Part shown: piece by piece, positions 1-14,080 of the stretch
Numbering within the stretch: the stretch's first letter is position 1
Layout of the letters: every line of letters starts with the position of its first letter
NCBI GenBank assembly: GCA_947490035.1
Contig: CANLGS010000030.1
Coordinates: forward strand, 1 to 14,080
Source of the DNA: Gemmataceae bacterium
GTDB taxonomy: Bacteria; Planctomycetota; Planctomycetia; Gemmatales; Gemmataceae
Reading direction: 5' to 3'
DNA length: 14,080 nt
Program-made: the position numbers and the translations under genes
Notes under the pieces: model-generated
What the model saw: the letters and a program-made list of their open reading frames with translations, nothing else
Databases searched by the model: none
Told to the model about the DNA's origin: nothing

Positions 1-836
1 AACGGCGCGATGCCGTCGCCGGGGTACACGCGGTCCGCGTCGTTGATCTTGTCGCGCTCGATCTTCGGGTAATCGTTCACATGGAAGATGCCGATCGCCG
101 ACGCGGACAGCAGCGGCAAGCCGGCGAAGTCGGAGCCGCCCTTGTAGAGGTGGTACACGTCCGGCAGCACGCACCCGCGCGAACTGCCGCTCTCGACCGC
201 CACGAGCAGCGCCTCGCCCAACCGCCGCAGCGTCTTCGAGAAGCCCCACAGCTCGACGATGGGTGTGACGTTCATCTTCGCGCCGACTTCCATGAGCGCG
301 TGATAGCGGTCGGCCGCGGCGACGAGGTCAACGATGGGCTGTGTGAACTTCGGGTCGTCGCGCTTGCTCATGCCGCCGGTCGCGCCGACGGGCGGCGCCG
401 CGATGTGGGGGCAGCCGATCTCCGCGGCCCACTCCATGTCCCGCTTCGCCTGCTCCAAGCCCTTCTTGCGGCGGTCGGCGTCCTCGACGATCCACTCCGC
501 GAACCCGATCACATCGGGCACCTGGAGGTTGGCGTCGGTGATCCGCTTGCGGAGTTCCTTGAGCGTGCCGCCGCCCTTGAGGTAGGCGTCGATCTCGGAG
601 GTCCACGGCTCGAAGGCGTCGTACCCGGCTTTCGACGCGATGTCGATGAGGTCGGTGATCGGGCGCGATTTCCCGTCCTTGTCGCGCACGGTGCTGGTGT
701 TCAGGCAGAAGCGGAATTTATGCTGGGGCGAGCCGGGAGCGTCAGCGACCGGAGTTGCGGCGCATTCGGTCGCGGTCATCGCCAGCCCTCCGGCGGCGCC
801 GGCGAGCAGCGCGCGGCGGGAGATGTCGCTGTTCAT
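1..836 (-). CDS. Tat-exported sugar phosphate isomerase/epimerase-like TIM barrel protein (3' end outside window)
   Basis: The first 278 codons are present and the gene runs off the left edge. The N-terminus carries a twin-arginine export signal (SRRALLAGAAGG, Arg7-Arg8), so the protein is probably exported folded. After the signal, the mature part shows the layout of the xylose-isomerase-like TIM barrel (AP endonuclease 2) superfamily: FRFCLNTST as first strand, GYDAFEPW, then DVIGFAEW, HIAAPPVGATGG, PIVELWGFSK with a likely metal-binding Glu, DVYHLYKGGSD and IFHVNDYP. These resemble the metal-ligand strands of sugar isomerases/epimerases. The substrate cannot be told from sequence. The start is ATG at 836; codons 33-42 lie on a dispersed 28-bp repeat (727-754). 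The gene follows the PKS gene by 70 bases, across a hairpin, so co-transcription is uncertain. Family confidence is high, function low. Confidence 0.85.
   Translation of the reverse strand, partial: MNSDISRRALLAGAAGGLAMTATECAATPVADAPGSPQHKFRFCLNTSTVRDKDGKSRPITDLIDIASKAGYDAFEPWTSEIDAYLKGGGTLKELRKRITDANLQVPDVIGFAEWIVEDADRRKKGLEQAKRDMEWAAEIGCPHIAAPPVGATGGMSKRDDPKFTQPIVDLVAAADRYHALMEVGAKMNVTPIVELWGFSKTLRRLGEALLVAVESGSSRGCVLPDVYHLYKGGSDFAGLPLLSASAIGIFHVNDYPKIERDKINDADRVYPGDGIAP
727..754 (-). repeat. 28-bp dispersed repeat, copy A (inside the isomerase-like gene)
   Basis: Read on the minus strand, this starts CTCCGGTCGCT and ends CTCCCGGCTCGCC, with G-AC-G between. It matches copies B (10139-10166) and C (13224-13251) at 26 of 28 positions across all three. 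Here it is in frame and encodes PVADAPGSP just after the Tat signal. Confidence 0.85.
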
Positions 837-847
837 GTGTGCCTCTC

Positions 848-910
848 GTAGGACAGACTACCAGCCCGTCTCGGTACGACCAAGATGACAGGCTGGCAGC
901 GCTGTCCTAC
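848..910. terminator. Long imperfect inverted repeat over the PKS stop codon, possible terminator
   Basis: Arms 848-866 and 891-910 pair as GTAGGACAG with CTGTCCTAC (9 bp), then a small internal bulge, then CCAGCC with GGCTGG (6 bp), around a 24-base loop. The right arm contains the stop codon of the PKS gene (907-909). No T-run follows on either strand, so an intrinsic terminator is not proven; it may instead be a dispersed palindromic element. Confidence 0.5.
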
Positions 911-2031
911 ATAAACAGCGCGGCTTCCGCCACAAGTCCCGGCCCGAACCCGAGCGCGACGCACGGCCCGGGCGCGTTCGCTTCGCGCAACCGCCGCAGG
1001 ATGAACAGCACGGTCGGGCTGGACATGTTGCCGTACTCCGCGAACACGCCGCGCGACGGCGCGAGGGCTTCAACCGAGAGCGCGAGCGACTCTTCGACCG
1101 CGGACACGATCTTCGGCCCGCCGGGGTGGATTGCCCAGCTGCGCACGTCGGCGAGTGACAGCCCGTTGTCACCGAGCCACGCCTCGAGCCACGGCTTCAG
1201 GTGCTGTGCGATTAACGAAGGCACGCGGCGCGACAGCGTCATCGCGAACCCGTGGTCGCCCACGGTCCAGCTCATGTCGGCGGCGGAGTTGGGGATGAGA
1301 CACGACCCGGAAGAGGCCAGACTCCAGGGCGAGCGGGGGGCGTAAGCCCCCTGTTTCTTCTCTTCGCTCGCGCAGCCCACAACAGCCGCGGCGCCGTCGG
1401 CGAAGATCGCGTTGGCGATGAGCTTGTCCGCGGCGCTGCCGTAGTAGTAGTGGAGGCTGCTCAGTTCCACCGCGCACACTAGCACGCGCGCGGTTGGGTC
1501 GGAACTCGCGAACGCGTTCGCCACGCGCAGCCCGTTCAGCGCGCCGTGACAGCCCATGAACCCGACGTGCGTGCGCGCCACGGTCGGCTTCAGTCCCAAC
1601 CCCGTAATGAGTGCGAAGTCCACACCCGGCGCCGCGAACCCGGTACACGACACCGTCACCAGGTGCGTGATCGTCTCCGGGCTGAAGCCGGCTTCGGCCA
1701 GCGCGGACGCCGACGCCCGCAGCGCGAGCGGCCCGGCTTGCTTCGCGTAAATCTCCATCCGCTCGCCGGTGGTCGGGCCGACGCCGTCGTTCGCGGATGT
1801 CGGCAGGAACGGCGAACCGCTGTGCGCGGTGCCGTCCAGCACGTCGTTGACGACCGGCCCGCCGATCACCTGGAAGCGCGACGCGGCGCCGCTGCTCGCG
1901 TAGATCGGGCCGAGCCACGTCGAGGTGCGCACGTCCGGCCCCGCGAGAGCGCGCGCGAGGCCGAGTCCCTGCGCGGCGGTCACGGCGTCCGGCGGGTGCG
2001 CGATGCCGAGGCCGTGAATCGCGAAGCTCAT
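907..2031 (-). CDS. Type III polyketide synthase (chalcone/stilbene synthase family)
   Basis: This 374-residue protein has the normal length of a homodimeric type III PKS. The catalytic triad is visible: Cys161 in GFMGCHGALNG, His302 in AIHPGGPKI and Asn335 in EYGNMSSPT. The C-terminal GFGPGLVAEAALF is the usual family end motif. Such enzymes extend an acyl-CoA or acyl-ACP starter with malonyl-CoA and cyclise the chain; bacterial relatives make alkylresorcinols, alkylpyrones or tetrahydroxynaphthalene. Given the methyltransferase and flavoprotein partners, an alkylresorcinol-type phenolic lipid is the best guess. The ATG at 2031 is chosen because it overlaps the stop of the upstream oxidoreductase (ATGA) and has GAGGAA at 2039-2044. 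An in-frame extension to 2283 only shadows the oxidoreductase gene. Last gene of a three-gene translationally coupled operon. Confidence 0.95.
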   Translation of the reverse strand: MSFAIHGLGIAHPPDAVTAAQGLGLARALAGPDVRTSTWLGPIYASSGAASRFQVIGGPVVNDVLDGTAHSGSPFLPTSANDGVGPTTGERMEIYAKQAGPLALRASASALAEAGFSPETITHLVTVSCTGFAAPGVDFALITGLGLKPTVARTHVGFMGCHGALNGLRVANAFASSDPTARVLVCAVELSSLHYYYGSAADKLIANAIFADGAAAVVGCASEEKKQGAYAPRSPWSLASSGSCLIPNSAADMSWTVGDHGFAMTLSRRVPSLIAQHLKPWLEAWLGDNGLSLADVRSWAIHPGGPKIVSAVEESLALSVEALAPSRGVFAEYGNMSSPTVLFILRRLREANAPGPCVALGFGPGLVAEAALFM

Positions 2032-3116
2032 GCGGGAGTTCCTCGGCGGTTGAGTGACGCGACCACCGGGCGCGACAGTATCGGCAGCGCGGACAGCGCG
2101 CGAACTACAACTGTCGTGAGTCTTGGCGAGCGCAGCACACGCGACACGACGCGGCACACCCGCTGTCGCGTTCCGATCGCGCGTGCGTGAGCGCGTTCCC
2201 ACTCGCGAACGTGCGAAGCGTGCCACTGTTGCACAGCGCGTGCCGCGATCGGTGCTACCGCCGCGGCGGAGGCGATGGCCCACGCCATGCCCTCGCCGGT
2301 GAACGGCTCAACATAGCCGGCCGCGTCGCCGATGGCGAACCACCGCTCGCCGGCCAGGTGCCGAGCGTGCCGCGTCAGCGCCGGGGTTCCTTTCCACGGC
2401 AACTCCGCGAGTTTGGGCGGTCGCGGCCAGCCGACTTCGCCGAGAACGGTTTCCGCCGCGGGGCCCAGTCCGCCTTGCGCTTTGACGAACCCGACATCGA
2501 ACGCGGCGGCCACATCGAGGCGCCCGTCTTCGACGCGCACGAGGCCGACGTATCCGCCGAAACCGGTCGCCATGAAGATTGTTCCGGGGGTGAAGTGTGC
2601 GGGCACCGCGTCGGCTGGAACGACGACGCCCGCGCCGATGCGAGAGCCGGCGTCGGGCGCCGCGTCGGACCCGCCGAGGCCAGTCGCGACGATGACGACC
2701 TTCGCGCGAACACGCTCGTGACCCACAAAGATTTCGGGCGTAACCGCGTCCGATTCGCCGAGTTTCGCGGTCACGCCCTCGCGCAACTCGACGCCGGCTT
2801 TCACGGCTTCGCGCACGAGCGCCAGGTCGAACGCTTCGCGCGACAGCGACACGCCGCCGGGTAGTTTCACGGTCGCCGCGCGCCGACCGGCGCCGATGCG
2901 CACGTCGCGCAGGGGCACGCCGTTCGCAAGAACGTGACCGAGGCCGAGGCGCCGGAGTGACGCGACCGCGGAACCGTTCACGCAGCACCCGCACACCTTC
3001 GGTCGCGGGAAGTGCGCCTTGTCTACCAGCAGCACGGAACACCCCAGGCGCGCGAGTTCGCGCGCCGCGACCGCGCCCGCGGGACCGGCCCCGATCACCA
3101 CCGCGTCCCACGTCAT
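2028..3116 (-). CDS. FAD-dependent oxidoreductase, geranylgeranyl reductase/hydroxylase-like, of the PKS operon
   Basis: A 362-residue flavoprotein. The Rossmann dinucleotide motif VIGAGPAGAVAARELARLG lies at the N-terminus, followed by FPRPKVCGCCVNG, the PRxKxCG signature of the geranylgeranyl reductase superfamily, and GDAAGYVEPFTGEGMAWAI, the second FAD-contacting motif, near residue 280. Related proteins either reduce isoprenoid double bonds or hydroxylate aromatic rings. In the Streptomyces srs pathway the flavoprotein SrsC hydroxylates the PKS product on the way to alkylquinones, so a tailoring oxidation of a phenolic lipid is a reasonable inference here. The ATG at 3116 overlaps the methyltransferase stop (ATGA), and its own stop overlaps the PKS start, so all three proteins are probably made by coupled translation. 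Reduction rather than hydroxylation cannot be excluded. Confidence 0.92.
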   Translation of the reverse strand: MTWDAVVIGAGPAGAVAARELARLGCSVLLVDKAHFPRPKVCGCCVNGSAVASLRRLGLGHVLANGVPLRDVRIGAGRRAATVKLPGGVSLSREAFDLALVREAVKAGVELREGVTAKLGESDAVTPEIFVGHERVRAKVVIVATGLGGSDAAPDAGSRIGAGVVVPADAVPAHFTPGTIFMATGFGGYVGLVRVEDGRLDVAAAFDVGFVKAQGGLGPAAETVLGEVGWPRPPKLAELPWKGTPALTRHARHLAGERWFAIGDAAGYVEPFTGEGMAWAIASAAAVAPIAARAVQQWHASHVREWERAHARAIGTRQRVCRVVSRVLRSPRLTTVVVRALSALPILSRPVVASLNRRGTPA

Positions 3117-3811
3117 GCGCGGCTCCACGTAAGCAGGAATCGCGAAGGGAACTTGCTCTTCACGGTCGCGCCGGAAAGTCCCGCGCGCGAGGCAATCGCG
3201 AGCGCCTCGGCCGGCGTGAACGCCGAGCGCACGGACGCGGGGCCGTCGAACCACACCACCCGCGAGCGCGTCAGTACGCGGCACGCGAACCACACCGCAC
3301 AGTAGTTGAACCGCGAGCGCACGAGGTCGTTCACCAAAATCATCCGGCCGGCCGCGTTCTCCATGTTCGCGAAGAGCGCGACCGCTTCGTCTTCGCTCAG
3401 GTGGTGGAGGAACAGCGAACACGTGACCACGTCGAAGCCGGTCGGCAGGCGGTCGTGGAGCGCGTCGTGAACGAAGAACCGCACGCCGGATTGCTGCCGC
3501 GAAGCCTCTTCGATCGCGGTCGCGCTCAGGTCGCACCCAGACACTTCGAGCGAAACGCCGGCGAGAGTCGCGCGGGCAAGCAGTTTGCGCGGCACGTCGC
3601 CGCTGCCGGTCGCCACGTCGAGCACTTTTACGGTTCGCTGAAGTTGCCGAGACAGTTTCGCGATCGCGGGCCACAGCACGCCGACGCTGTTGCTGAACCG
3701 GTTCAGGCGCGCCAGCCCGGCGAGCGCGTGCCGGTGCGCGGCCGGGTCGATGGCCGGGTCGTCCATGAGTTCGGGGATGCGGTCGCGCGTGCGCAGACCT
3801 GCGAGCAACAT
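3113..3811 (-). CDS. Class I SAM-dependent methyltransferase of the PKS operon
   Basis: A 232-residue protein with a standard SAM-binding fold. Motif I is VLDVATGSGD (residues 63-72), the acidic residue after strand 2 is in SGCDLS (Asp94), and the post-motif is FDVVTCSLFLHHLSEDE, then ILVNDLVRS. Family members methylate small molecules; the setting suggests O- or C-methylation of the polyketide, as SrsB does in the S. griseus alkylresorcinol cluster. The start at 3811 is preferred because GGAG sits at 3818-3821, six bases upstream, and because the 31 extra residues available from 3904 are low-complexity and lie over the divergent promoter region. First gene of the operon; its stop overlaps the oxidoreductase start by ATGA. 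Confidence 0.92.
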   Translation of the reverse strand: MLLAGLRTRDRIPELMDDPAIDPAAHRHALAGLARLNRFSNSVGVLWPAIAKLSRQLQRTVKVLDVATGSGDVPRKLLARATLAGVSLEVSGCDLSATAIEEASRQQSGVRFFVHDALHDRLPTGFDVVTCSLFLHHLSEDEAVALFANMENAAGRMILVNDLVRSRFNYCAVWFACRVLTRSRVVWFDGPASVRSAFTPAEALAIASRAGLSGATVKSKFPSRFLLTWSRA

Positions 3812-3836
3812 TGAGGCTCCGGGTGCGGGCCAGGGT

Positions 3837-3842
3837 ATTGTA
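3837..3842 (-). promoter_or_regulatory. Possible -10 box of the PKS operon
   Basis: On the minus strand TACAAT (five of six to TATAAT) lies 25 bases upstream of the methyltransferase ATG, in the 125-base gap between divergent genes. A -35 box at 17-base spacing is poor (GCGACC). Short AT-rich sites are rare in this DNA, which gives some support. Confidence 0.35.
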
Positions 3843-3936
3843 AGCGTCTGGGCTGTTGCGGTCGCGGAACGGGTGTGGTAGCGTGCAACGTAACGGTCGC
3901 TCATACGTCACGAGTTTGCCTCACCCGGAGCCGCCC

Positions 3937-4356
3937 ATGTCGCACCCCAACGGCCACGCCGCACACCTCGCGAAGCACGACTTCATCATCCCGCCGGGCG
4001 ACGACTTCACCGCCGCGGAGTGCGACCTGCTTCGCAAGTACGGTCGATGGATGGACGCGCTCGTGTCGGGAACACTGGAGCCGACCACTCCGAGCCAGGA
4101 GCAGTTTCTCCTTGTCGCGCGCGGTGGGCGCGAACCGCAGACGGACTTCGAGAAGGTGTGGGCCAAGGTGGCACAGTGGCGCGCGCTCGGCGGTCTGGTC
4201 GCGCGCACGTTCGTGGCGCTGCGCGACGCGCGGCAGCACGCCGCCACGGTCGAAGCGGAATACCTCGCGGCCCGCGTCGAAGTGTTGACCGCGGTGCACG
4301 AGCAACTCGCCGCGGTGGACGCGGCGTTCGCGGAGCAACTTCAGGGCGCAAACTAA
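3937..4356 (+). CDS. MaoP/YifE-like (DUF413) domain protein with a C-terminal helical extension
   Basis: A 139-residue cytoplasmic protein. Residues about 21-80 match the DUF413 family: FTAAECDLLRKYG, then LEPTTPSQEQF, then GGREPQTDFEKVWAKV. Against the E. coli YifE/MaoP sequence as I remember it, about 23 of 55 residues align identically without gaps, including the repeated EP.T pattern and the final V-W-x-K. MaoP helps organise the Ori macrodomain in enterobacteria; whether this protein does anything similar is unknown. Residues about 80-135 look helical and coiled-coil-like (ARTFVALRDARQHAATVEAE and onward), and differ from the MaoP tail. Start ATG at 3937 has CGGAG at 3925-3929; upstream in-frame starts lack this. 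Its stop overlaps a further ATG (TAATG). Confidence 0.8.
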   Translation: MSHPNGHAAHLAKHDFIIPPGDDFTAAECDLLRKYGRWMDALVSGTLEPTTPSQEQFLLVARGGREPQTDFEKVWAKVAQWRALGGLVARTFVALRDARQHAATVEAEYLAARVEVLTAVHEQLAAVDAAFAEQLQGAN

Positions 4357-4413
4357 TGCGCGACCGGCGCGGAACAGGCGGCGCGCGAATTCGTACTCCG
4401 GCTGGGGCGCAGC

Positions 4414-4659
4414 GTGACACGTTTGGCCGGTATTACCGCGACGTACAACGCCGGTCGCGTGACGTGGGATCCCGAGAAGATGGCGGCGTTCGTTGAGCGG
4501 CATCCAGAGATGCTGGAGTTCCGCAAGGTGGGCAAGCCGTGGGTCGCGCTGCGGTTCGGCGACGCAAGCGGACCCCGACCGGTATCGGAGAGGGGCGAAG
4601 TGAAGATGTTGTCTGAAGGCGAGCGGCGTGAGCCTTCCGAGGCATCCCAACAACCGTAA
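4414..4659 (+). CDS. Small unknown protein downstream of the MaoP-like gene; start uncertain, possibly frameshifted
   Basis: From a GTG at 4414 this encodes 81 residues, with a well-behaved middle part (ATYNAGRVTWDPEKMAAF, then HPEMLEFRKVGKPWVALRFG) and a polar, probably disordered tail. I do not recognise the family. The same frame continues upstream to 4357 as AEQAAREFVLRLGRSV, which also looks like real protein but has no standard start codon. An ATG at 4356 that overlaps the stop of the MaoP-like gene (TAATG) would lead into this frame if one C in the run at 4365-4366 were absent. So either the gene starts at 4414 (weak GGGG at 4405-4408 as ribosome site), or it starts at 4356 and carries a one-base insertion. 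Probably co-transcribed with the MaoP-like gene. Confidence 0.55.
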   Translation: MTRLAGITATYNAGRVTWDPEKMAAFVERHPEMLEFRKVGKPWVALRFGDASGPRPVSERGEVKMLSEGERREPSEASQQP

Positions 4660-4671
4660 TGCCGTTCAGAA

Positions 4672-4688
4672 GCAGGCGGGACGCCTGC
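4672..4688. terminator. Short perfect hairpin between convergent genes
   Basis: GCAGGCG (4672-4678) pairs with CGCCTGC (4682-4688) around a 3-base loop. It sits between the convergent ends of the small plus-strand ORF (4659) and glgX (4723), where a two-way terminator would be useful. No T-run follows. Confidence 0.45.
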
Positions 4689-4722
4689 ACAACAATTCAA
4701 ACTGAGATAATACCGACCAGCC

Positions 4723-6878
<2,156 letters not shown>

Positions 6879-7062
6879 GAAACCCCCTCAATGAACACTC
6901 CGCAGCCAACAGTCGGCGCGGATGCCGTGCGAATCGCATACCGGCGGCGCGACCAATTCCGCGACCGGTCGCACCGGCGGCACGGGTCGTGCAAGTGTTG
7001 GCGCCGAGGCGCGCACTTCGCGTACCGGTTTGATGACTCAAAAACTCCATAGGAGAGACTAC

Positions 7063-7758
7063 GTGGCCGTTATCGTTGCATCGACGGAACCTGTAAAGAT
7101 GGAAGACGTGGCCGGCGTGCGGAGCCGCATCTCGTGGCCCGCGATCGTCGCCGGGGCGGTCGTCGCGGTCGCGGTCAACCTCGTCCTGACGCTGTTCTTC
7201 GCGGCCCTCGGGCTGACGGTCGCGGAAGCCGGCGTGCGGGCCAACACGGTCGGCACCGCGGCGCTCATCGCCGCGCTCGTGAGCATCATCCTGTCGCTGT
7301 TCGCCGGCGGGTGGGTGAGCACCCAACTGACCGCCGGGGAGAGTGAGCGGGAATCCGTCCTGTACGGGATTCTGACGTGGGCGCTGGTGGTCGGGTTCTC
7401 GCTCGCGATCGTCGGCATGGGCGCGCGGGCGGGGTACTTCGCCATCGTCGGCGGGTCGATGATCGGGCAGCAGAACCCGGCCATCCAGCAGCGCATCGAC
7501 GCGGGGATGGCGACCGCCGAACAAAAGGCTGCTCAGACCCAGGAAGAGCTGAAGAACGACCCGGCCGCCGCCCAACAGCGGATCGACCAGGCGCAGAAGG
7601 CCGCGGTCGGGGCGTCGTGGGCGGCGCTGGTCGGCATTATGCTGTCGATGGCGGCGTCGATCATCGGCGCGATGGTCGGGTGCGGTCACGCGTTCCGACT
7701 CATCCCGGTCGCTCGCCCCCGTATGGTCGGGACGCGGCGGGAAGTCGCGGTCTCGTAA
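7063..7758 (+). CDS. Small integral membrane protein with four predicted helices, unknown function
   Basis: This 231-residue protein has hydrophobic segments at about 26-50, 64-84, 98-120 and 184-207. Between the third and fourth lies a polar Gln/Ala/Lys-rich stretch (about 136-182, including [15 protein letters not shown]) likely to form an amphipathic helix or coiled coil. The first helix, [19 protein letters not shown], resembles a widespread type of unnamed bacterial membrane protein. A GTG start at 7063 is chosen because AGGAGA lies at 7051-7056, six bases upstream. Longer in-frame starts (ATG at 6922 or 7033) lack a ribosome site, and the 47 residues after 6922 are composition-biased. 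The stop is followed by a strong palindrome. The neighbouring genes give no clear functional hint. Confidence 0.8.
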
Positions 7759-7781
7759 GTGGGAAGGCAACTCGTCAGACC

Positions 7782-7819
7782 TGTTCGTAGTGACCCGCTA
7801 AAGCGGATCACTACGAACA
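7782..7819. repeat. Strong near-perfect palindrome, terminator or dispersed palindromic element
   Basis: TGTTCGTAGTGA (7782-7793) pairs with TCACTACGAACA (7808-7819), 12 perfect base pairs. After one C/A mismatch, CCGC (7795-7798) pairs with GCGG (7803-7806) around a TAAA loop. It lies 23 bases after the membrane protein stop. No T-tract follows. It is markedly less GC-rich than its surroundings, which suggests a discrete inserted element rather than drifted local sequence. Confidence 0.8.
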
Positions 7820-7893
7820 CATTCGCGTTCGGCACAGAGGTTGCGGCATCCCACTTCCGTCCGCGTCCGCCCGCTCTACCACCAGCAGCACCC

Positions 7894-9363
7894 ATGACCA
7901 ACACCACAAGTTCCGTTTGGTCCACTGACGACCCGGTTCGGGCCGCCGCGCCGCTCGCCGGTAAGACCCGCTACGAAGTGTGCGTGATCGGTGGCGGTAT
8001 CGCCGGCCTCACCACCGCGTACCTGCTCGCGTCCGAAGGCAAGTCGGTCGTCGTCCTCGACGCCAAACCCGCCGTCGCCGGCGGCGAAACCGAATACACC
8101 ACCGCGCACCTCGCCTGGGTACTCGACGACCGGTTCGCGCGCGTCGCGTCGATCCGCGGCGACGAGGCGGCGAAGCTCGCGGCCAAAAGCCATCGTTCCG
8201 CGATCGACCTGATTGAGGAGATCGTGCGCCGCGAAGGCATCGCGTGCGACTTCAAGCGCCTCGACGGCTACCTGTTCCCCGGTTCCGACGGCCCGGAGGC
8301 GGTTCGCGAGGAGATGCTCGCGCTGACGCGCCTCGGGCTGATGTTCGAGCGCGTGGACCGCGTACCGTTCCCGGCCGGCGCGGTCGGCCCGGCGCTGCGT
8401 TTCCGCGACAACGGCCAGTTCCACCCGCTCAAGTACCTGGGCGACATCGTCGGGCTGATCCGCAAGAAGGGGGGCGTGATCCACACCGACACGCAGGTGG
8501 TGAAGATGGAGAACGGCTCGCCGTGCGTCGCGCACACGAAGTCCGGCCACACGGTTACCGCCGACGCAATCGTGATCGCCACCGGTTCGCCGTTCGACGC
8601 GGGGCTGACGCTGCACTTCAAACTCGCCGCGTACAACACCTACGCAATCGCGCTCGAAGTGCCGCCGGGGTACGTGCCGCCTGGCCTCTTCTGGGACACT
8701 GAAGACCCGTACCACTACGTGCGTACCGCGCACGGCACCGGCACCGAATACCTCATCGTCGGCGGCGAAGATCATAAGACCGGGCAGGCGCAGGATCAGA
8801 AGGAGCGCTGGGCCGCGCTGGAGGCGTGGACGCGGGCGAGCTTCCCCGACGCCGGCCCGGTGCGGCACCACTGGTCCGGGCAGGTGTTCGAGACGCCCGA
8901 CGGGTTGGGGCGGATCGGCCTCGCGCCGGGCTGGCGCGACAACCTGTACGTCATCACCGGCGATTCGGGCACGGGCATGACGCACGGCACTCTCGGCGCT
9001 CGGCTCGTGGCCGACCTGATCCTCGGTCGGACGAACCCGTTCGCGGGGTTGTACTCGCCGTCGCGCTGGATGCCCGGCGCGCTCAAGACGCTGATCGAGG
9101 AGAACGCGAACTTGGCGGCTCAGTACACCGACTGGCTCACCGGCAGCGAGGTGGCGTCCGCCGCGGACATCCCAAAAGGCCACGGCGCGGTGGTCCGCGA
9201 CGGATTGAGCAAGACCGCGGTGTACAAGGACGACAAGGGGCAGGTTCACGAGATGACCGCGGTGTGCCCGCACCTGGGCGGCATCGTGCAGTGGAACCAC
9301 GGCGAGAAGACGTGGGACTGCCCGTGCCACGGCTCGCGCTTTTCCTGCACCGGCGAGGTGTAA
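7894..9363 (+). CDS. FAD-dependent oxidoreductase with C-terminal Rieske [2Fe-2S] domain, prematurely stopped
   Basis: A 489-residue fusion like Bacillus YhfW: a DAO-type flavin domain plus a Rieske domain. The Rossmann motif is CVIGGGIAG (Gly33-Gly38), with ADAIVIATGSPF and VITGDSGTGMTHG completing the FAD site. The Rieske ligands are Cys458 and His460 (CPHLGG) and Cys476 and His479 (CPCHGSRF). The reading frame stops at TAA 9361-9363, but the same frame continues HGPAVEGLKLKTT to a second TAA at 9403-9405. The GPA is the conserved Rieske proline loop, which covers the cluster, so the first stop looks like a nonsense change or a base error. Restored, it has 503 residues. The physiological electron partners are unknown. 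The start ATG at 7894 avoids the palindrome at 7782-7819 that an upstream in-frame start at 7759 would translate. Confidence 0.9.
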   Translation: MTNTTSSVWSTDDPVRAAAPLAGKTRYEVCVIGGGIAGLTTAYLLASEGKSVVVLDAKPAVAGGETEYTTAHLAWVLDDRFARVASIRGDEAAKLAAKSHRSAIDLIEEIVRREGIACDFKRLDGYLFPGSDGPEAVREEMLALTRLGLMFERVDRVPFPAGAVGPALRFRDNGQFHPLKYLGDIVGLIRKKGGVIHTDTQVVKMENGSPCVAHTKSGHTVTADAIVIATGSPFDAGLTLHFKLAAYNTYAIALEVPPGYVPPGLFWDTEDPYHYVRTAHGTGTEYLIVGGEDHKTGQAQDQKERWAALEAWTRASFPDAGPVRHHWSGQVFETPDGLGRIGLAPGWRDNLYVITGDSGTGMTHGTLGARLVADLILGRTNPFAGLYSPSRWMPGALKTLIEENANLAAQYTDWLTGSEVASAADIPKGHGAVVRDGLSKTAVYKDDKGQVHEMTAVCPHLGGIVQWNHGEKTWDCPCHGSRFSCTGEV

Positions 9364-9417
9364 CACGGCCCGGCCGTCGAGGGACTGAAGCTGAAGACGA
9401 CGTAATTTTCGCCGCGA

Positions 9418-9444
9418 GCGGCTTCGCAAGACTCGCGAAGCCGC
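9418..9444. terminator. 10-bp stem hairpin after the FAD/Rieske gene
   Basis: GCGGCTTCGC (9418-9427) pairs perfectly with GCGAAGCCGC (9435-9444) around a 7-base loop. It lies 12 bases beyond the second in-frame stop of the FAD/Rieske gene. No T-run follows. It may be a terminator or a repeat-family member related to the adjacent palindrome at 9454-9467. Confidence 0.5.
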
Positions 9445-9453
9445 GACTTACGA

Positions 9454-9467
9454 AGCCGCAAGCGGCT
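9454..9467. repeat. Short palindrome beside the 9418-9444 hairpin
   Basis: AGCCGC and GCGGCT flank AA. The core AAGCCGC recurs in the neighbouring hairpin, so the two may be decayed copies of one element. It ends nine bases before the ribosome site of the glycine-zipper gene. Confidence 0.45.
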
Positions 9468-9488
9468 CAACCCAACAAGGAACCACTC

Positions 9489-10007
9489 ATGAGCACCGAG
9501 ACCAAGAACGACGACAAGAAGTCCGTCGATCTGCCGCCCTACGGGCCGCGGAACCCGGACCCGATCACGAACACGCCCGGCTCGCACCCGATCGAAGCCG
9601 GCGTCGGCGCCGCGGTCGGCGGGGCCGCGACCGGCGCCGCCATCGGCCTGCTCCTCGGCCCGCCCGGCGTGATCCTCGGCACCATCGACGGGGCCGTGGC
9701 CGGCGGCCTCGCGGGGAAGGGCGTGGGCGAACTGATCGACCCTACTACCGAGGACAACTGGATTCGCGAGTGGCTGGCCGAGCGCAAGCACACGCAGGAG
9801 GTGAGCGACGAACACGCGGCCGAGGCGTACCGGTTCGGGCTGAAGGCCGAGTTCGACCACCCGAACGAAACGTTCGACGAGGTGGAGCCGGAACTTCGGG
9901 CGAAGTGGGAAGCCCAGCCCAAACAGGACGATCCGCACTGGGACGACATCCACGGCTCCGCCCGCGCCGGCTACGAGCGCATGCACAGCTTCCGTGACCG
10001 GATGTAA
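9489..10007 (+). CDS. Glycine-zipper protein of a widespread unnamed family
   Basis: A 172-residue protein in three parts. Residues 1-36 are polar and end in the motif PDPITNTPGSHP. Residues 37-80 are a glycine zipper with GxxxG spacing (GVGAAVGGAATGAAIG, then GAVAGGLAGKGVGE), which usually packs as paired membrane-inserting or membrane-associated helices. Residues 81-172 are an acidic soluble tail with AYRFGLKAEF, FDEVEPELRAKWE and HWDDIHGSARAGYERM. The same three-part layout is, from memory, common in hypothetical proteins of proteobacteria and planctomycetes, whose function I do not know. No signal peptide is seen. The ATG at 9489 has AAGGA at 9477-9481. It follows the FAD/Rieske gene on the same strand with two hairpins between. 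Confidence 0.88.
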   Translation: MSTETKNDDKKSVDLPPYGPRNPDPITNTPGSHPIEAGVGAAVGGAATGAAIGLLLGPPGVILGTIDGAVAGGLAGKGVGELIDPTTEDNWIREWLAERKHTQEVSDEHAAEAYRFGLKAEFDHPNETFDEVEPELRAKWEAQPKQDDPHWDDIHGSARAGYERMHSFRDRM

Positions 10008-10056
10008 GGTTTTGCTCATCGAATGCTCGCGCCGCTTCCCTTCGCGGTCGCGGGCT

Positions 10057-10086
10057 GATACCCTCGTTAGTATCCGCCTGACGAGG
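10057..10086 (+). promoter_or_regulatory. Two mutually exclusive small hairpins over the ribosome site of the cytochrome gene
   Basis: GATAC (10057-10061) can pair with GTATC (10070-10074). Alternatively CCTCGT (10062-10067) can pair with ACGAGG (10081-10086), which contains the GAGG ribosome site of the gene at 10096. The stems are only 5-6 bp, so this could be chance. Confidence 0.25.
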
Positions 10087-10095
10087 TTCCCGCCG

Positions 10096-13000
10096 ATGCG
10101 CTCTCTTTCCCGCGTTGTGCTGTTCGCGTTGCTTCTCGCTCCGGTCGCTTACGCTCCCGGCTCGCCCGAAGCACAGCAACCCAAAGATAAGGTCGATCCC
10201 GATCACGTCGCGAAGGTGGCGAAGGGGACGGAGTTGTTCAAGACGAGCGTGCGCGCCGTGCTTCAGGCGAAGTGCCTGAAGTGCCACAGCGGGGAGCGCG
10301 TCGAAGGCGCGCTCGACATGAACACCCGCGATTTGCTTCTGAAGGGCGGCGAGCGCGGCCCCGCGATCGTCAGCGGGAATGCGAAGAAGAGCCTGCTGTA
10401 CCAACTGACGGCTCACCAGAAAGAGCCGCATATGCCCCACGAGCGGGCGAAGCTCGCGGACGCGGACATCGCCAAGATCGCCGAGTGGATCGACCTCGGT
10501 GCGCCCTACGACAAGCCCTTCATAGCGATCGACGAGACCGCGTGGACGAAGAAGGTCACGCCCGCAGAGGGGAAGAAACACTGGGCGTATCAACCCCTCT
10601 TGAAGGTGCAGCCTCCGAAGGCGAGCGCGAACCCCATCGACGCCTTCCTCCTCGACAAGCTCGACAAGGCCAACCTCAAGCCCAACCCCGCGGCCGACAA
10701 GCGCACGCTGATCCGCCGCGCGTACCTCGGCCTCATCGGGCTGCCGCCGACGCCTGAACAGGTCGATGCCTTCCTCAAGGACGAAACCCCCGGCGCCTAC
10801 GACAAGGTGATTGATTCGCTACTCGCGTCGCAACACTTCGGGGAGAAGCAAGCACGCCACTGGCTCGACCTCGTGCGGTTCGCCGAGAGCCACGGCTTCG
10901 AGCACGACTACGACCGGCCCACCGCGTACCACTACCGCGACTTCGTCATCAAGGCGATCAATCAGGATTTGCCCTTTGATACGTTCGCGAAATGGCAACT
11001 CGCGGGCGACGAGATCGCGCCGACCGAGCCGCTGGCGGTGATGGCGACGGGCTACCTCGCGGCCGGCGTTCACAGCACGCAGATCACCAAGAACGAAGCC
11101 GAGAAGCACCGGTACGACGAGATGGACGACATGCTCGCGAACGTCGGCACCACGTTCCTCGGCCTCACCGTCGGTTGCGCTCGCTGCCACGACCACAAGT
11201 TCGACGCGATCCCGGCGCGCGACTACTACCGGATGCTCGCGGCGTTCACCACGGTCGTCCGCACGGAGGTGGAACTCGACCTCGACCCGCAAGGCTACGC
11301 GAAGGCGAAGACCGCGTTCGACATCGAACACATGCGGTTCACTGAAGCGCTAACGAAGTTCGAGAAGGAGCAACTGCCGGCAAAGTTCGCGGCCTGGGAA
11401 AAGGATCGCGCCGGCAAGCCGCTGCCCGCGGACGGGTGGGTGCTGCCGCGCATCACCGCGAGCAAGTCCGCCGGCGGCGCGACGCTCACCGCGCAGCCCG
11501 ACGGCAGCGTGCTGCTGTCCGGCAAGAACCCGACCACCGAAACGCTCACGTTCGAGTTGCTCACCGACTTGCAGGAGATCAAGTCGCTGCGGCTCGAAGC
11601 GCTGGCGCACGCGTCGTTCGTGAAATCCGGGCCGGGGCGCGCCGCGAACGGTAACTTCGCGCTGTCGGACATTCGCGTGCTGGCGGAAGCGGTCAATAAC
11701 AAGGAATCGCTGCCGGCGGTGCGCGTGAAGCTGACCAACGCCCGCGCCACGTTCGAGCAAAAGGGGTTGGGCGTTTCGGCCGCGATCGACGAGAGCGTGA
11801 CGACCGCGTGGGCCATCGACCCGCAGATCGGGAAGGATCACGCGGCGGCGTTCGCGTTCGAGAAGCCGGTCGGGTTCGCGGGCGGCACGAAGCTCACCGT
11901 GACGCTGTCCTTCAATAACAACACCGGGCACGGCATTGGTCGCCCGCGGTTCAGCGTAAGTGGAAGCGAGAAGCCGGAACTGACCGGCACCGCGACCGCG
12001 GAGGCCGTGCGCGCCGCGCTCGCACTTCCGGCCGACAAGCGCACGCCGGAACAAGTGACCGTGCTGCTCAGGTGGTACGCGCCGCAGGACGCGGAGTTCC
12101 AGAAGTTGCAAAAAGCGGAGCGCGATCACTTCGCGACCGCGCCCAAGCCGAACAAGGTGAAGGCTCTCGTCGCCAGCGAGGGCTTGCCCGCGGTCAAGTT
12201 GCACACGCAGGCCGAAGCGGAGTTCCTCAAAGAAACGCACTTCCTGCGGCGCGGCGACGCGGCGCAGAAGTCGGGCGTCGCGTCGGTCGCGTTCCTGCAA
12301 ACGCTCATGCCGGACGCGGAGGCGCAGTCGAAGTGGGTGAAGCCCGCGCCCGCCGGATCGCGCCTCAGCTACCAGCGCACCGCGTTCGCGAACTGGATGA
12401 CCGACACCGACGGCGGGGCCGGGCACCTCGTCGCACGCGTCATCGTGAACCGACTCTGGGCGCAGCACTTCGGGCGCGGGTTGGTGGCAACCACGAGCGA
12501 CTTCGGCATCCGCGGCGAGGCGCCAAGCCACCCGGAGTTGCTCGACTACCTCGCGGCCGAGTTAATCCGCAACGGCTGGAAGCTGAAGCCGATTCACAAG
12601 CTGATCGTGACGAGCGCCGCGTACCAGCAAAGCTCCGCACGCGACGAAGCGAAGGCAAAGGCCGACCCGGAGAACAAGTTCGTGTGGCGCCAACCGGTGC
12701 GCCGGCTCCAAGCCGAAGTGATCCGCGACAGCATCCTCGCGGTCGGCGGGCGGCTCAACACGACGATGTACGGTGCGGGGACGTTAAGCGAAGAAAGCCC
12801 GCGGCGGAGCATCTACTTCACCATGAAGCGGAGCAAACTGATTCCGTCGCTGGTGGTGTTCGACGCCCCGGACGGCACGACCGCCGTGGGCGACCGCCCG
12901 AACACGACGGTCGCACCGCAGGCGCTTCACCTCATGAACAACGTGCATGTGCGAGCCGCGGCCTACGGGCTGGCGAAGCGTGCCAGCAACGACGGCAAGG

Positions 13001-13182
13001 CCACCGACACCGAGAGCGTGACGGGCGCCTACAAGATCGCGCTGTGCCGCGAGCCGTCGAAGGACGAACTGGCCGACGCGCTGGCGTTCCTGAAACCGCA
13101 CACCGGGGCCGCCCGCGAGACCGCGCTCGCGGACCTGTGCCAGGTGCTGTTCTGCCTGAACGAGTTCCTCTACGCGGAATAG
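10096..13182 (+). CDS. Planctomycete cytochrome protein: PSCyt1, PSCyt2/DUF1549 and PSD1/DUF1553
   Basis: A 1028-residue exported protein. Residues 1-20 form a Sec-type signal (LSRVVLFALLLAPVAYA). PSCyt1 follows, with a haem c motif CLKCHSG (Cys60, Cys63, His64) and a probable distal Met in EPHMPHER. DUF1549 spans about 176-400 (RRAYLGLIGLPPTPEQVDAF, then RHWLDLVRFAESHG) and contains a second CxxCH (CARCHDHKFD, Cys361-His365). A beta-rich insertion (about 465-640, including LTDLQEIKSLRLEAL and GPGRAANGNFALSD) resembles carbohydrate-binding-like insertions seen in this family. DUF1553 covers about 760-1000 (VIVNRLWAQHFGRGL). Family members are numerous in planctomycetes and thought to act in the periplasm; their reaction is not settled. 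The start ATG at 10096 has GAGG at 10083-10086 and begins at the signal peptide. Repeat copy B encodes its cleavage region. Confidence 0.95.
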   Translation: MRSLSRVVLFALLLAPVAYAPGSPEAQQPKDKVDPDHVAKVAKGTELFKTSVRAVLQAKCLKCHSGERVEGALDMNTRDLLLKGGERGPAIVSGNAKKSLLYQLTAHQKEPHMPHERAKLADADIAKIAEWIDLGAPYDKPFIAIDETAWTKKVTPAEGKKHWAYQPLLKVQPPKASANPIDAFLLDKLDKANLKPNPAADKRTLIRRAYLGLIGLPPTPEQVDAFLKDETPGAYDKVIDSLLASQHFGEKQARHWLDLVRFAESHGFEHDYDRPTAYHYRDFVIKAINQDLPFDTFAKWQLAGDEIAPTEPLAVMATGYLAAGVHSTQITKNEAEKHRYDEMDDMLANVGTTFLGLTVGCARCHDHKFDAIPARDYYRMLAAFTTVVRTEVELDLDPQGYAKAKTAFDIEHMRFTEALTKFEKEQLPAKFAAWEKDRAGKPLPADGWVLPRITASKSAGGATLTAQPDGSVLLSGKNPTTETLTFELLTDLQEIKSLRLEALAHASFVKSGPGRAANGNFALSDIRVLAEAVNNKESLPAVRVKLTNARATFEQKGLGVSAAIDESVTTAWAIDPQIGKDHAAAFAFEKPVGFAGGTKLTVTLSFNNNTGHGIGRPRFSVSGSEKPELTGTATAEAVRAALALPADKRTPEQVTVLLRWYAPQDAEFQKLQKAERDHFATAPKPNKVKALVASEGLPAVKLHTQAEAEFLKETHFLRRGDAAQKSGVASVAFLQTLMPDAEAQSKWVKPAPAGSRLSYQRTAFANWMTDTDGGAGHLVARVIVNRLWAQHFGRGLVATTSDFGIRGEAPSHPELLDYLAAELIRNGWKLKPIHKLIVTSAAYQQSSARDEAKAKADPENKFVWRQPVRRLQAEVIRDSILAVGGRLNTTMYGAGTLSEESPRRSIYFTMKRSKLIPSLVVFDAPDGTTAVGDRPNTTVAPQALHLMNNVHVRAAAYGLAKRASNDGKATDTESVTGAYKIALCREPSKDELADALAFLKPHTGAARETALADLCQVLFCLNEFLYAE
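10139..10166 (+). repeat. 28-bp dispersed repeat, copy B (signal peptide end of the cytochrome gene)
   Basis: Starts CTCCGGTCGCT and ends CTCCCGGCTCGCC with T-AC-G between. It is in frame and encodes PVAYAPGSP at the predicted signal peptidase site (AYA), in the same frame as copy A (727-754, minus strand). Confidence 0.85.
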
Positions 13183-13197
13183 GTCGAACACGGCCCG

Positions 13198-13220
13198 ACA
13201 TCCAACCGAGACATCCAACC
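13198..13220 (+). repeat. Two-copy tandem direct repeat, 13-base period
   Basis: ACATCCAACC occurs at 13198-13207 and again at 13211-13220, separated by GAG, in the gap between the cytochrome and DUF1501 genes. Confidence 0.6.
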
Positions 13221-13223
13221 AAA

Positions 13224-13251
13224 CTCCGGTCGCTTACACTCCCGGCTCGCC
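13224..13251 (+). repeat. 28-bp dispersed repeat, copy C (leader of the DUF1501 gene)
   Basis: Starts CTCCGGTCGCT and ends CTCCCGGCTCGCC with T-AC-A between. This copy is untranslated: it lies after the cytochrome stop and ends exactly where the AGGAA ribosome site (13252-13256) of the next gene begins. Confidence 0.85.
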
Positions 13252-13262
13252 AGGAACCCGCT

Positions 13263-14080
13263 ATGCACAACCTTCCCCGTTTGTTCGCGTCGCCTGGCGA
13301 AAGCACCGCGTACCGCTCGCGTCGCGAGTTCCTCGCCCGCGCCGGCTTCGGCTTCGGCATGCTCGCGCTCGCCGACCTGCTGAACGCCGAAGAGAAGTCC
13401 GAAGACCCGCTCGCGGCGCGGAAGCCGCACTTCCCCGCGAAGGCCAAGTCGGTCATCTGGCTGTTCATGAACGGCGGGCCGTCGCAGGTCGATACCTGGG
13501 ACTACAAGCCGGAGTTGGAGAAGCGCGACGGTCAGGAACTCAAGGGCTTCGACCCGAACACCGGGTTCTTCGCCGCGCAGGTCGGGCCGCTCATGAAGTC
13601 GCCGTTCAAGTTCGAGAAGCACGGGCAGTGCGGGAAGATGGTCAGCTCGCTGTTCCCGCACATGGCGAAGCACGTGGACAAGATGGCGTTCATCCACTCG
13701 CTGTGGAGCGACTCGAACAACCACTCGCCGGCGCTGTTCAAGATGAACACCGGCATGGGGCGGATGGGCTTCCCGTGCGTCGGCAGTTGGGTGACCTATG
13801 GCATGGGTAGCGAGAGCCGCAACCTGCCGGCGTTCTGCGTGATGTACGACACGCTCGGCCGCGGCATCCCCAAAGGCCACTCGCTGAACTGGGGCGCCGG
13901 GTTCCTGCCGACCGTCTACCAGGGCACCGCGTTCAAGCCGCAGGGCGACCCCATCGACAACTTGACGCGACCGAAGGACATCACCGACGAGCGGCAGCGA
14001 AGTCAGCTCGACCTGCTCGCGAAACTGAACAAGCAGGCGGCCGACAAGCACCCCGGCGAAGCGGACTGGACCGCGCGAGT
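13263..14080 (+). CDS. DUF1501 protein with Tat signal (3' end outside window)
   Basis: The first 272 codons are present and the frame is open to the right edge. The N-terminus has a twin-arginine signal, SRREFLARAGFGFGMLAL (Arg20-Arg21). The mature part begins with the DUF1501 hallmark KSVIWLFMNGGPSQVDTWDYKP and continues KHGQCGKMVSSLFPHMAKHVDK, AFIHSLWSDSNNHSPALFKMNTG and FPCVGSWVTYGMGS. DUF1501 belongs to the alkaline phosphatase/sulfatase-like superfamily; its activity is not established. In planctomycetes it regularly follows a PSCyt/DUF1549/DUF1553 gene, as here with an 80-base gap, so the two are probably co-transcribed and act in the same exported system. The start ATG at 13263 has AGGAA six bases upstream. 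Confidence 0.95.
   Translation, partial: MHNLPRLFASPGESTAYRSRREFLARAGFGFGMLALADLLNAEEKSEDPLAARKPHFPAKAKSVIWLFMNGGPSQVDTWDYKPELEKRDGQELKGFDPNTGFFAAQVGPLMKSPFKFEKHGQCGKMVSSLFPHMAKHVDKMAFIHSLWSDSNNHSPALFKMNTGMGRMGFPCVGSWVTYGMGSESRNLPAFCVMYDTLGRGIPKGHSLNWGAGFLPTVYQGTAFKPQGDPIDNLTRPKDITDERQRSQLDLLAKLNKQAADKHPGEADWTAR

Follow-up and report, generated by a model that had tools for sequence, protein, structure and literature searches.

We analysed a 14,080-nucleotide stretch of a Gemmataceae bacterium genome (assembly GCA_947490035.1, contig CANLGS010000030.1; hereafter, the window), in which a dispersed 28-bp repeat occurs in three copies, A, B and C. A sequence-only reading had placed these copies at 727-754 (minus strand), 10139-10166 (plus) and 13224-13251 (plus), and a sequence check confirmed all three, with 26 of 28 positions invariant among them and pairwise mismatches of 1, 2 and 1. 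Copies A and B each form part of the reading frame at the end of an export signal, where they encode PVADAPGSP and PVAYAPGSP; the repeat on the other strand is GGCGAGCCGGGAGCGTNAGCGACCGGAG. The genes are also those that had been proposed, namely an AP_endonuc_2 TIM barrel for copy A, a PSCyt1/DUF1549/DUF1553 protein for copy B and a DUF1501 gene downstream of copy C. The features of the window are listed below, each repeat being assigned to the strand that carries its GGCGAGC end.

3..836, minus strand: gene harbouring copy A; encodes a sugar isomerase-like TIM barrel (PF01261, AP_endonuc_2) with a Tat-like signal; truncated by the window end
727..754, plus strand: copy A, loop base C; the minus-strand frame reads PVADAPGSP at the end of the Tat signal
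907..2031, minus strand: type III polyketide synthase gene (chalcone/stilbene synthase domains), host of a sister-subtype copy
1328..1353, plus strand: sister-subtype repeat GGCGAGCGGGGGGCGTAAGCCCCCTG, in frame as KQGAYAPRSP in the type III polyketide synthase gene
10093..13182, plus strand: host gene of copy B, a planctomycete cytochrome C (PSCyt1)/DUF1549/DUF1553 protein
10139..10166, minus strand: copy B, loop base A; PVAYAPGSP in the Sec signal
13224..13251, minus strand: copy C, intergenic, one base off the pattern (GTGTAAG), adjoining AGGA upstream of the DUF1501 gene
13263..14078, plus strand: DUF1501 gene with copy C upstream; truncated by the window end

Between copy C and the ATG at 13263 lie 11 bases, the first of which are AGGA. 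The repeat at 1328-1353, a fourth family member that differs in its arms (GGGGGG), had been overlooked in the earlier reading; it forms a near-perfect hairpin in frame within the type III polyketide synthase gene. An Rfam search of the window returned nothing at the gathering threshold.

The recurrence of the 28-mer exceeds chance by far. The genome to which the window belongs (G000, an assembly of 4.67 Mb that is 68% complete) contains 47 copies with up to three mismatches, compared to none for a reversed-pattern control, and 44 of these 47 start with GGCGAGC, a foot that was part of the search pattern. The wider motif GGCGAGC-N6-CGTNAGC is found 266 times (control, 0), and among 91 contexts collected the six arm letters were GGGGGG in 48 and CGGGAG in 37. 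The consensus is an imperfect hairpin composed of the GGCGAGC foot, CCGG arms with a GA/GA internal mismatch, and a GTNA loop, while the GGGGGG sister subtype folds as a near-perfect hairpin (RNA z = -3.7). Many copies are arranged as inverted pairs, spaced 37 to 105 bp start to start in the 28-mer search. In G000, CTT stands immediately 5' of the GGCGAG foot in 12 of 49 GGGGGG-subtype copies (background about 1.4%), a possible cleavage-site signature. Beyond this genome, the wider motif was present in 39 of 59 genomes, own included; 16 of the 58 others held 21 to 220 copies. The reversed control gave 0-5, and genomes with one to five copies are at control level only. An exact scan of contigs from one genome per species gave at least 112 stretches with, among the matches listed, planctomycete titles in 80 of 80, and a plasmid collection gave six records with weak matches only (best E 0.01).

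To place the copies relative to genes, we surveyed 207 kb of the own genome in the neighbourhood of copies. These 63 merged pieces are 86% coding and hold 194 genes, which were called by a codon-usage script made for this work, so that starts are approximate. The effective limits of the in-gene surveys were 2 mismatches in the own genome and 1 in G089 and G069, the pattern N being counted as a mismatch, and two 3-mismatch copies among the 47 thus fall outside the 45 surveyed. In this set of CGGGAG-subtype copies 23 of 45 lie in genes, 21 are intergenic and 1 is partial, an in-gene share below what random landing would give by DNA share. Copies reside in frame in conserved genes: a Pfam family was found in 16 of the 20 host proteins scanned, and the hosts include RibBA, isoleucyl-tRNA synthetase (IleRS), NuoA, a biotin-carrier protein, molybdopterin oxidoreductase, a DnaK-related protein, and DUF1501 and DUF1549/1553 proteins. 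The repeat peptide of RibBA falls in a stretch that has no counterpart in the PDB relative 4i14. Since only 30 of 128 copies of a wider exact set, and 4 of 61 examined in G069, lie in genes, the own genome is unusually intragenic for this repeat.

Comparison with the two siblings nearest by gene A and gene B identity (G001 and G004, followed by G008 and G003) revealed that copies A and C are missing from both, and both encode gene A with a Tat-like signal. When 14 host genes were set against these siblings, the insert was absent from both in four (C445, where it adds 10 residues, C193, C223 and C705) and from one in three (C226, C6 and C95), while both siblings carry it at C388, where it is intact, and at C17, with changed arms. 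The C40 insert differs in each sibling, C101 had no counterpart in the one sibling aligned, and C38 and C597 gave no clear call. At C144 (L015), in a PLD-like gene, the subtype is CGGGAG in the own genome and GGGGGG at the same position in both siblings (L250, L247), which suggests conversion between subtypes or repeated insertion. The behaviour of a mobile short repeat that had been proposed is borne out by copy number, inverted pairs and presence or absence between siblings.

Copy B is shared with both siblings. Its 28-mer is kept at the DNA level in G000 and G004, with one base changed in G001, and farther relatives have other text of similar length. VAxAPG[SA]P-like text was found in 10 of 85 signals of gene B orthologues, and a looser form in 20 of 85, after 35 of the 120 listed proteins had been set aside as lacking the anchor used. 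One farther orthologue (G005) encodes APGSP in other codons. This pattern could have arisen from an ancient insertion whose silent sites are decaying, or from convergence; of what still speaks for a retained role of some kind, it is the strongest.

The reading frames of in-gene copies were examined in solitary copies only, leaving out 8 of the 23 in-gene copies of the own genome (paired, sorted by eye), under a null in which all stop-free frames are equally likely. Two frames account for all 15 of the own genome's solitary in-gene copies, compared to 5.8 expected (p = 4e-7), with PVA[DYHN]APGSP in 8 and GEPGASATG in 7, two of the latter with altered letters. Loop base C is common to all seven GEPGASATG-type copies; A or G there would give a stop. 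In G089, which belongs to another genus, 6 of 7 copies use the two frames (p = 0.04), and in the wider exact set, after removal of copies close to locus ends and of 11 loci taken to come from genomes already used, 10 of 16 do so (p = 0.013). The frame preference is strong in the own genome but weaker elsewhere. Pooling the solitary copies, with the siblings G001 and G004 excluded, placed 31 of 38 in the two frames (14.3 expected; p = 2e-8), 19 of the 38 in the PVAxAPGSP frame alone; the remaining frames give mostly arginine-containing peptides. We infer that purifying selection after insertion shapes frame use.

The sequence-only reading had interpreted copies A and B as a domesticated, portable export linker, and this interpretation was not supported. 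PVAxAPGSP is also found inside NuoA, the biotin-carrier protein and the PLD-like protein, and RibBA, IleRS and a molybdopterin oxidoreductase contain GEPGASATG or a sequence close to it. Because in-gene copies include RibBA, IleRS and NuoA, the repeat peptides are not export-specific, and neither confinement to export signals nor a main occurrence there, with one conserved peptide, was found among the in-gene copies surveyed. The AxA triplets suggested as a signal peptidase site are encoded (ADA, AYA), but the site is doubtful because proline follows. Proline at position +1 hinders signal peptidase I. Enrichment near gene starts, as had been predicted, is a real excess in two pooled genomes but a modest one: among the 22 solitary copies that G000 and G089 have together, 7 fall in the first 45 codons, where 2.2 were expected (p = 0.0035), and in the own genome alone 4 of 15 do so (1.6 expected, p = 0.06), in a test with positions entered by hand and the length of the gene A protein assumed to be 400. 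This N-terminal excess is explained by tolerance as well as by domestication.

DUF1501 genes provide the closest view of signal junctions. We compared 99 in-gene copies of both subtypes, some of them shared by descent among G000, G001 and G004; the GGGGGG subtype came from G000 only, and two C65 in-gene copies that lacked a single-locus reference were left out. DUF1501-like proteins host 9 of the 99, and all nine copies are N-terminal, at the signal/mature junction. Eight of these hosts are Pfam-confirmed with the repeat before the domain, and the ninth (C28) is recognized only by a profile built here. The junction peptides are PVANAPGSP in four cases and, once each, PVAHAPGSP, GADAPRSP (sister subtype, same frame), GEPGASATG, LRSLTLPAR and EASGGRKPSE, so that four frames are used in all, with 6 of 9 copies in the PVAxAPGSP frame. 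DUF1501 genes are extremely abundant, with at least 109 matches in G000 and at least 119 in G089, and this abundance accounts for part of the count, not for the position. Because the same frame is used by half of the pooled solitary copies (19/38), we read the junction as a tolerant landing place rather than a selected peptide, the numbers being too small to speak against a preference.

The first clue to a candidate transposase came from G038, a genome of the same order, with two Y1 transposase genes, each flanked by related repeats. When one of these transposases (L122) served as a protein query against 102 genomes of the order, 64 matched, and 30 loci were examined. The 28-mer lies on both sides of a Y1 (HUH) transposase gene at L152, L154, L163 and L164 (genomes G115, G069, G089 and G111), and at L156 (G023), where the gene is at a contig end, it lies on the sole side available. 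All five loci at least 64% identical to L154, L154 counted, have the 28-mer within 400 bp, compared to none of the remaining 25, at an identity cut-off that was picked after the data were seen. A sixth locus flanked by the 28-mer, L418, came from the repeat scan itself. The five transposases are in other genera of the family, outside the own genus, and all five proteins score over the Y1_Tnp cut-off in a profile search. Inverted pairs beside the transposase genes at L154 and L164 form strong single-strand folds (z = -12.8 and -12.3). Other repeat subtypes adjoin other members of this transposase family, for example at L151, L165, L192 and L193. More distant relatives of the L154 clade were found in 10 of 19 genomes of the genus (best identity 48%).

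Some further Y1 genes were observed near the subjects of this work. In G000, the IS200-like Y1 genes at L061 (G000:C51) and L062 (G000:C261) seemingly have their own, different flanking short repeats, visible as repeated peptide text in translations. In the sibling G001, the gene B and DUF1501 orthologues are followed a short distance downstream by a Y1 transposase gene (C29:10051; L129, G001:C29:8551-11742), which adjoins a longer GGCGAGC-type palindrome.

We compared these features with known systems as described in published accounts. The association of REP (repetitive extragenic palindromic) elements and REPINs with RAYT (REP-associated tyrosine transposase, TnpA_REP; PMC3733652, PMC8266576) is alike in having a short repeat, in the range of 20-50 nt and of a probable hairpin type, dispersed in tens to hundreds of copies as singlets and inverted pairs, and a Y1 HUH transposase gene flanked by copies. 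Because its foot is GGCGAGC, which is neither tetranucleotide, the 28-mer falls outside the GTAG and CGTC REP superfamilies as defined; arms and loop also differ. In one of these accounts REPs are mostly intergenic, in contrast to the 23 of 45 subtype copies found in genes here, although in-gene REPs are reported in several species, most of them in O. terrae and R. conorii, as perhaps neutral insertions, and the CGTC type, RPE-4 and RPE-6 included, is described as having no dedicated transposase (PMC3733652). Class 3 TnpA_Y1 proteins, found mainly in Planctomycetes, Acidobacteria and Proteobacteria, are encoded by genes flanked by many-copy hairpins (PMC6006769). Compared by eye with the motifs of that source, L154 (NHFH, WWT, YVLYKQ) shows the same HUH motif, W and Y----Q signature, with the same spacing in L152, L156, L163 and L164 (NH-F/L-H, WWT, Y----Q); its YVLYKQ does not match the class 3 motif YV[VI][AENY]EQ letter for letter, and the class 3 foot CnGA is, strictly, not that of the 28-mer, which has GCGA there, though the related G038 repeat at L122 has CCGA. 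Rickettsia palindromic elements (PMC10969869, PMC3733652) are similar as in-frame palindromic insertions in many unrelated conserved genes with an apparently tolerated peptide, but they are about 150 bp long (PMC10969869) and belong to another phylum. A literature search, with most subscription papers outside its scope, found neither REP work on Gemmata nor a description of the frame filter in this REP family or of the DUF1501 junction. We rate the planctomycete 28-mer family as an addition to the known REP/REPIN kind, its GGCGAGC foot being distinct.

Very probably, the 28-mer belongs as a REP element to a planctomycete REP/REPIN family that has spread with a Y1 (HUH) RAYT-like transposase and is tolerated within genes. 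Single-strand DNA transposition by such an enzyme would spread the 28-mer, singly or as inverted pairs, and selection would purge insertions that shift the frame, add stops or add arginine-rich peptides. The surviving in-gene copies would then mostly encode PVAxAPGSP or GEPGASATG, in loops, inter-domain linkers and signal/mature junctions, and the match between genes A and B would represent two landings of one element with no shared export function. The window copies at signal ends more probably reflect places where an insertion is tolerated than a tag made for export. Several observations weigh against this explanation. Single 28-mer DNA hairpins were matched in stability by 108, 54 and 82 of 200 shuffles, and their RNA z was -1.8 to -2.7 on the GGCGAGC strand and -0.9 on the other strand of copy B. 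Copy A is a net gain of 21 nt relative to G001 and G004, not 28, and the frame bias weakens outside the own genome. NF047646 (REP-associated tyrosine transposase) is the best family for five proteins, yet they score 34.6-46.2 bits, below its 80-bit cut-off. Neither the own genome nor the 18 other genus genomes searched yielded an L154-clade transposase, and the Y1 genes of the own genome were rejected as the cognate enzyme: none of the five Pfam Y1_Tnp genes, nor C150, a sixth found by protein search, has the repeat in the stretch examined. The cognate enzyme may lie in the unassembled third of the genome, may have been lost, or may have been replaced by a distant one.

The failure to find that enzyme among the 19 genus genomes is also what speaks for spread by gene conversion or recombination among existing repeats, with no transposase involved, as do the C144 locus, where both siblings have the other subtype at the same place, and copy A, which replaced host bases. 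Against such a process stand new sites, C445 among them, at which repeat-like text is missing from both siblings, and the co-occurrence in other genera of the exact 28-mer with one transposase clade; we consider it unlikely as the sole route, and gene conversion between copies may contribute to transposase-driven spread too. That the repeat was recruited as a portable signal-peptidase site with a flexible linker for exported proteins seems a good deal less probable still. The placement of A and B at signal ends, the N-terminal excess, the nine DUF1501 junctions with six in the PVAxAPGSP frame and the linker-like text in gene B orthologues would fit it; set against these, the majority of solitary in-gene copies are internal, several of them in cytoplasmic enzymes, the DUF1501 junctions accommodate GEPGASATG, LRSLTLPAR and EASGGRKPSE as well, proline follows the proposed cleavage site, and both nearest siblings have gene A with its Tat-like signal and no repeat. 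Protein-level convergence, in which proline/alanine/glycine linkers are alike by chance or selection, could account for the APGSP of G005 in other codons, but DNA-level identity extends over 28 bases, on both strands and into intergenic copies, and for the window copies near-identical intergenic copies exclude it. Building on the REP element explanation, one could picture a class-3-like REP family as an ongoing source of in-frame proline/glycine/alanine linkers, kept mainly in two frames, with signal/mature junctions, those of DUF1501 above all, as a recurrent landing pad and the linkers perhaps adjusting export or surface spacing; we regard this extension as speculative and rather improbable.

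The poorly known class-3-like Y1 transposases of planctomycetes gain from this work a concrete candidate for a cognate repeat. With about half of the copies examined for one subtype in frame within genes, many of which are conserved, the genome offers a natural experiment in the tolerance of protein sites and reading frames to insertions. The results also call for caution, in that short peptides common to unrelated planctomycete proteins need not be functional motifs.

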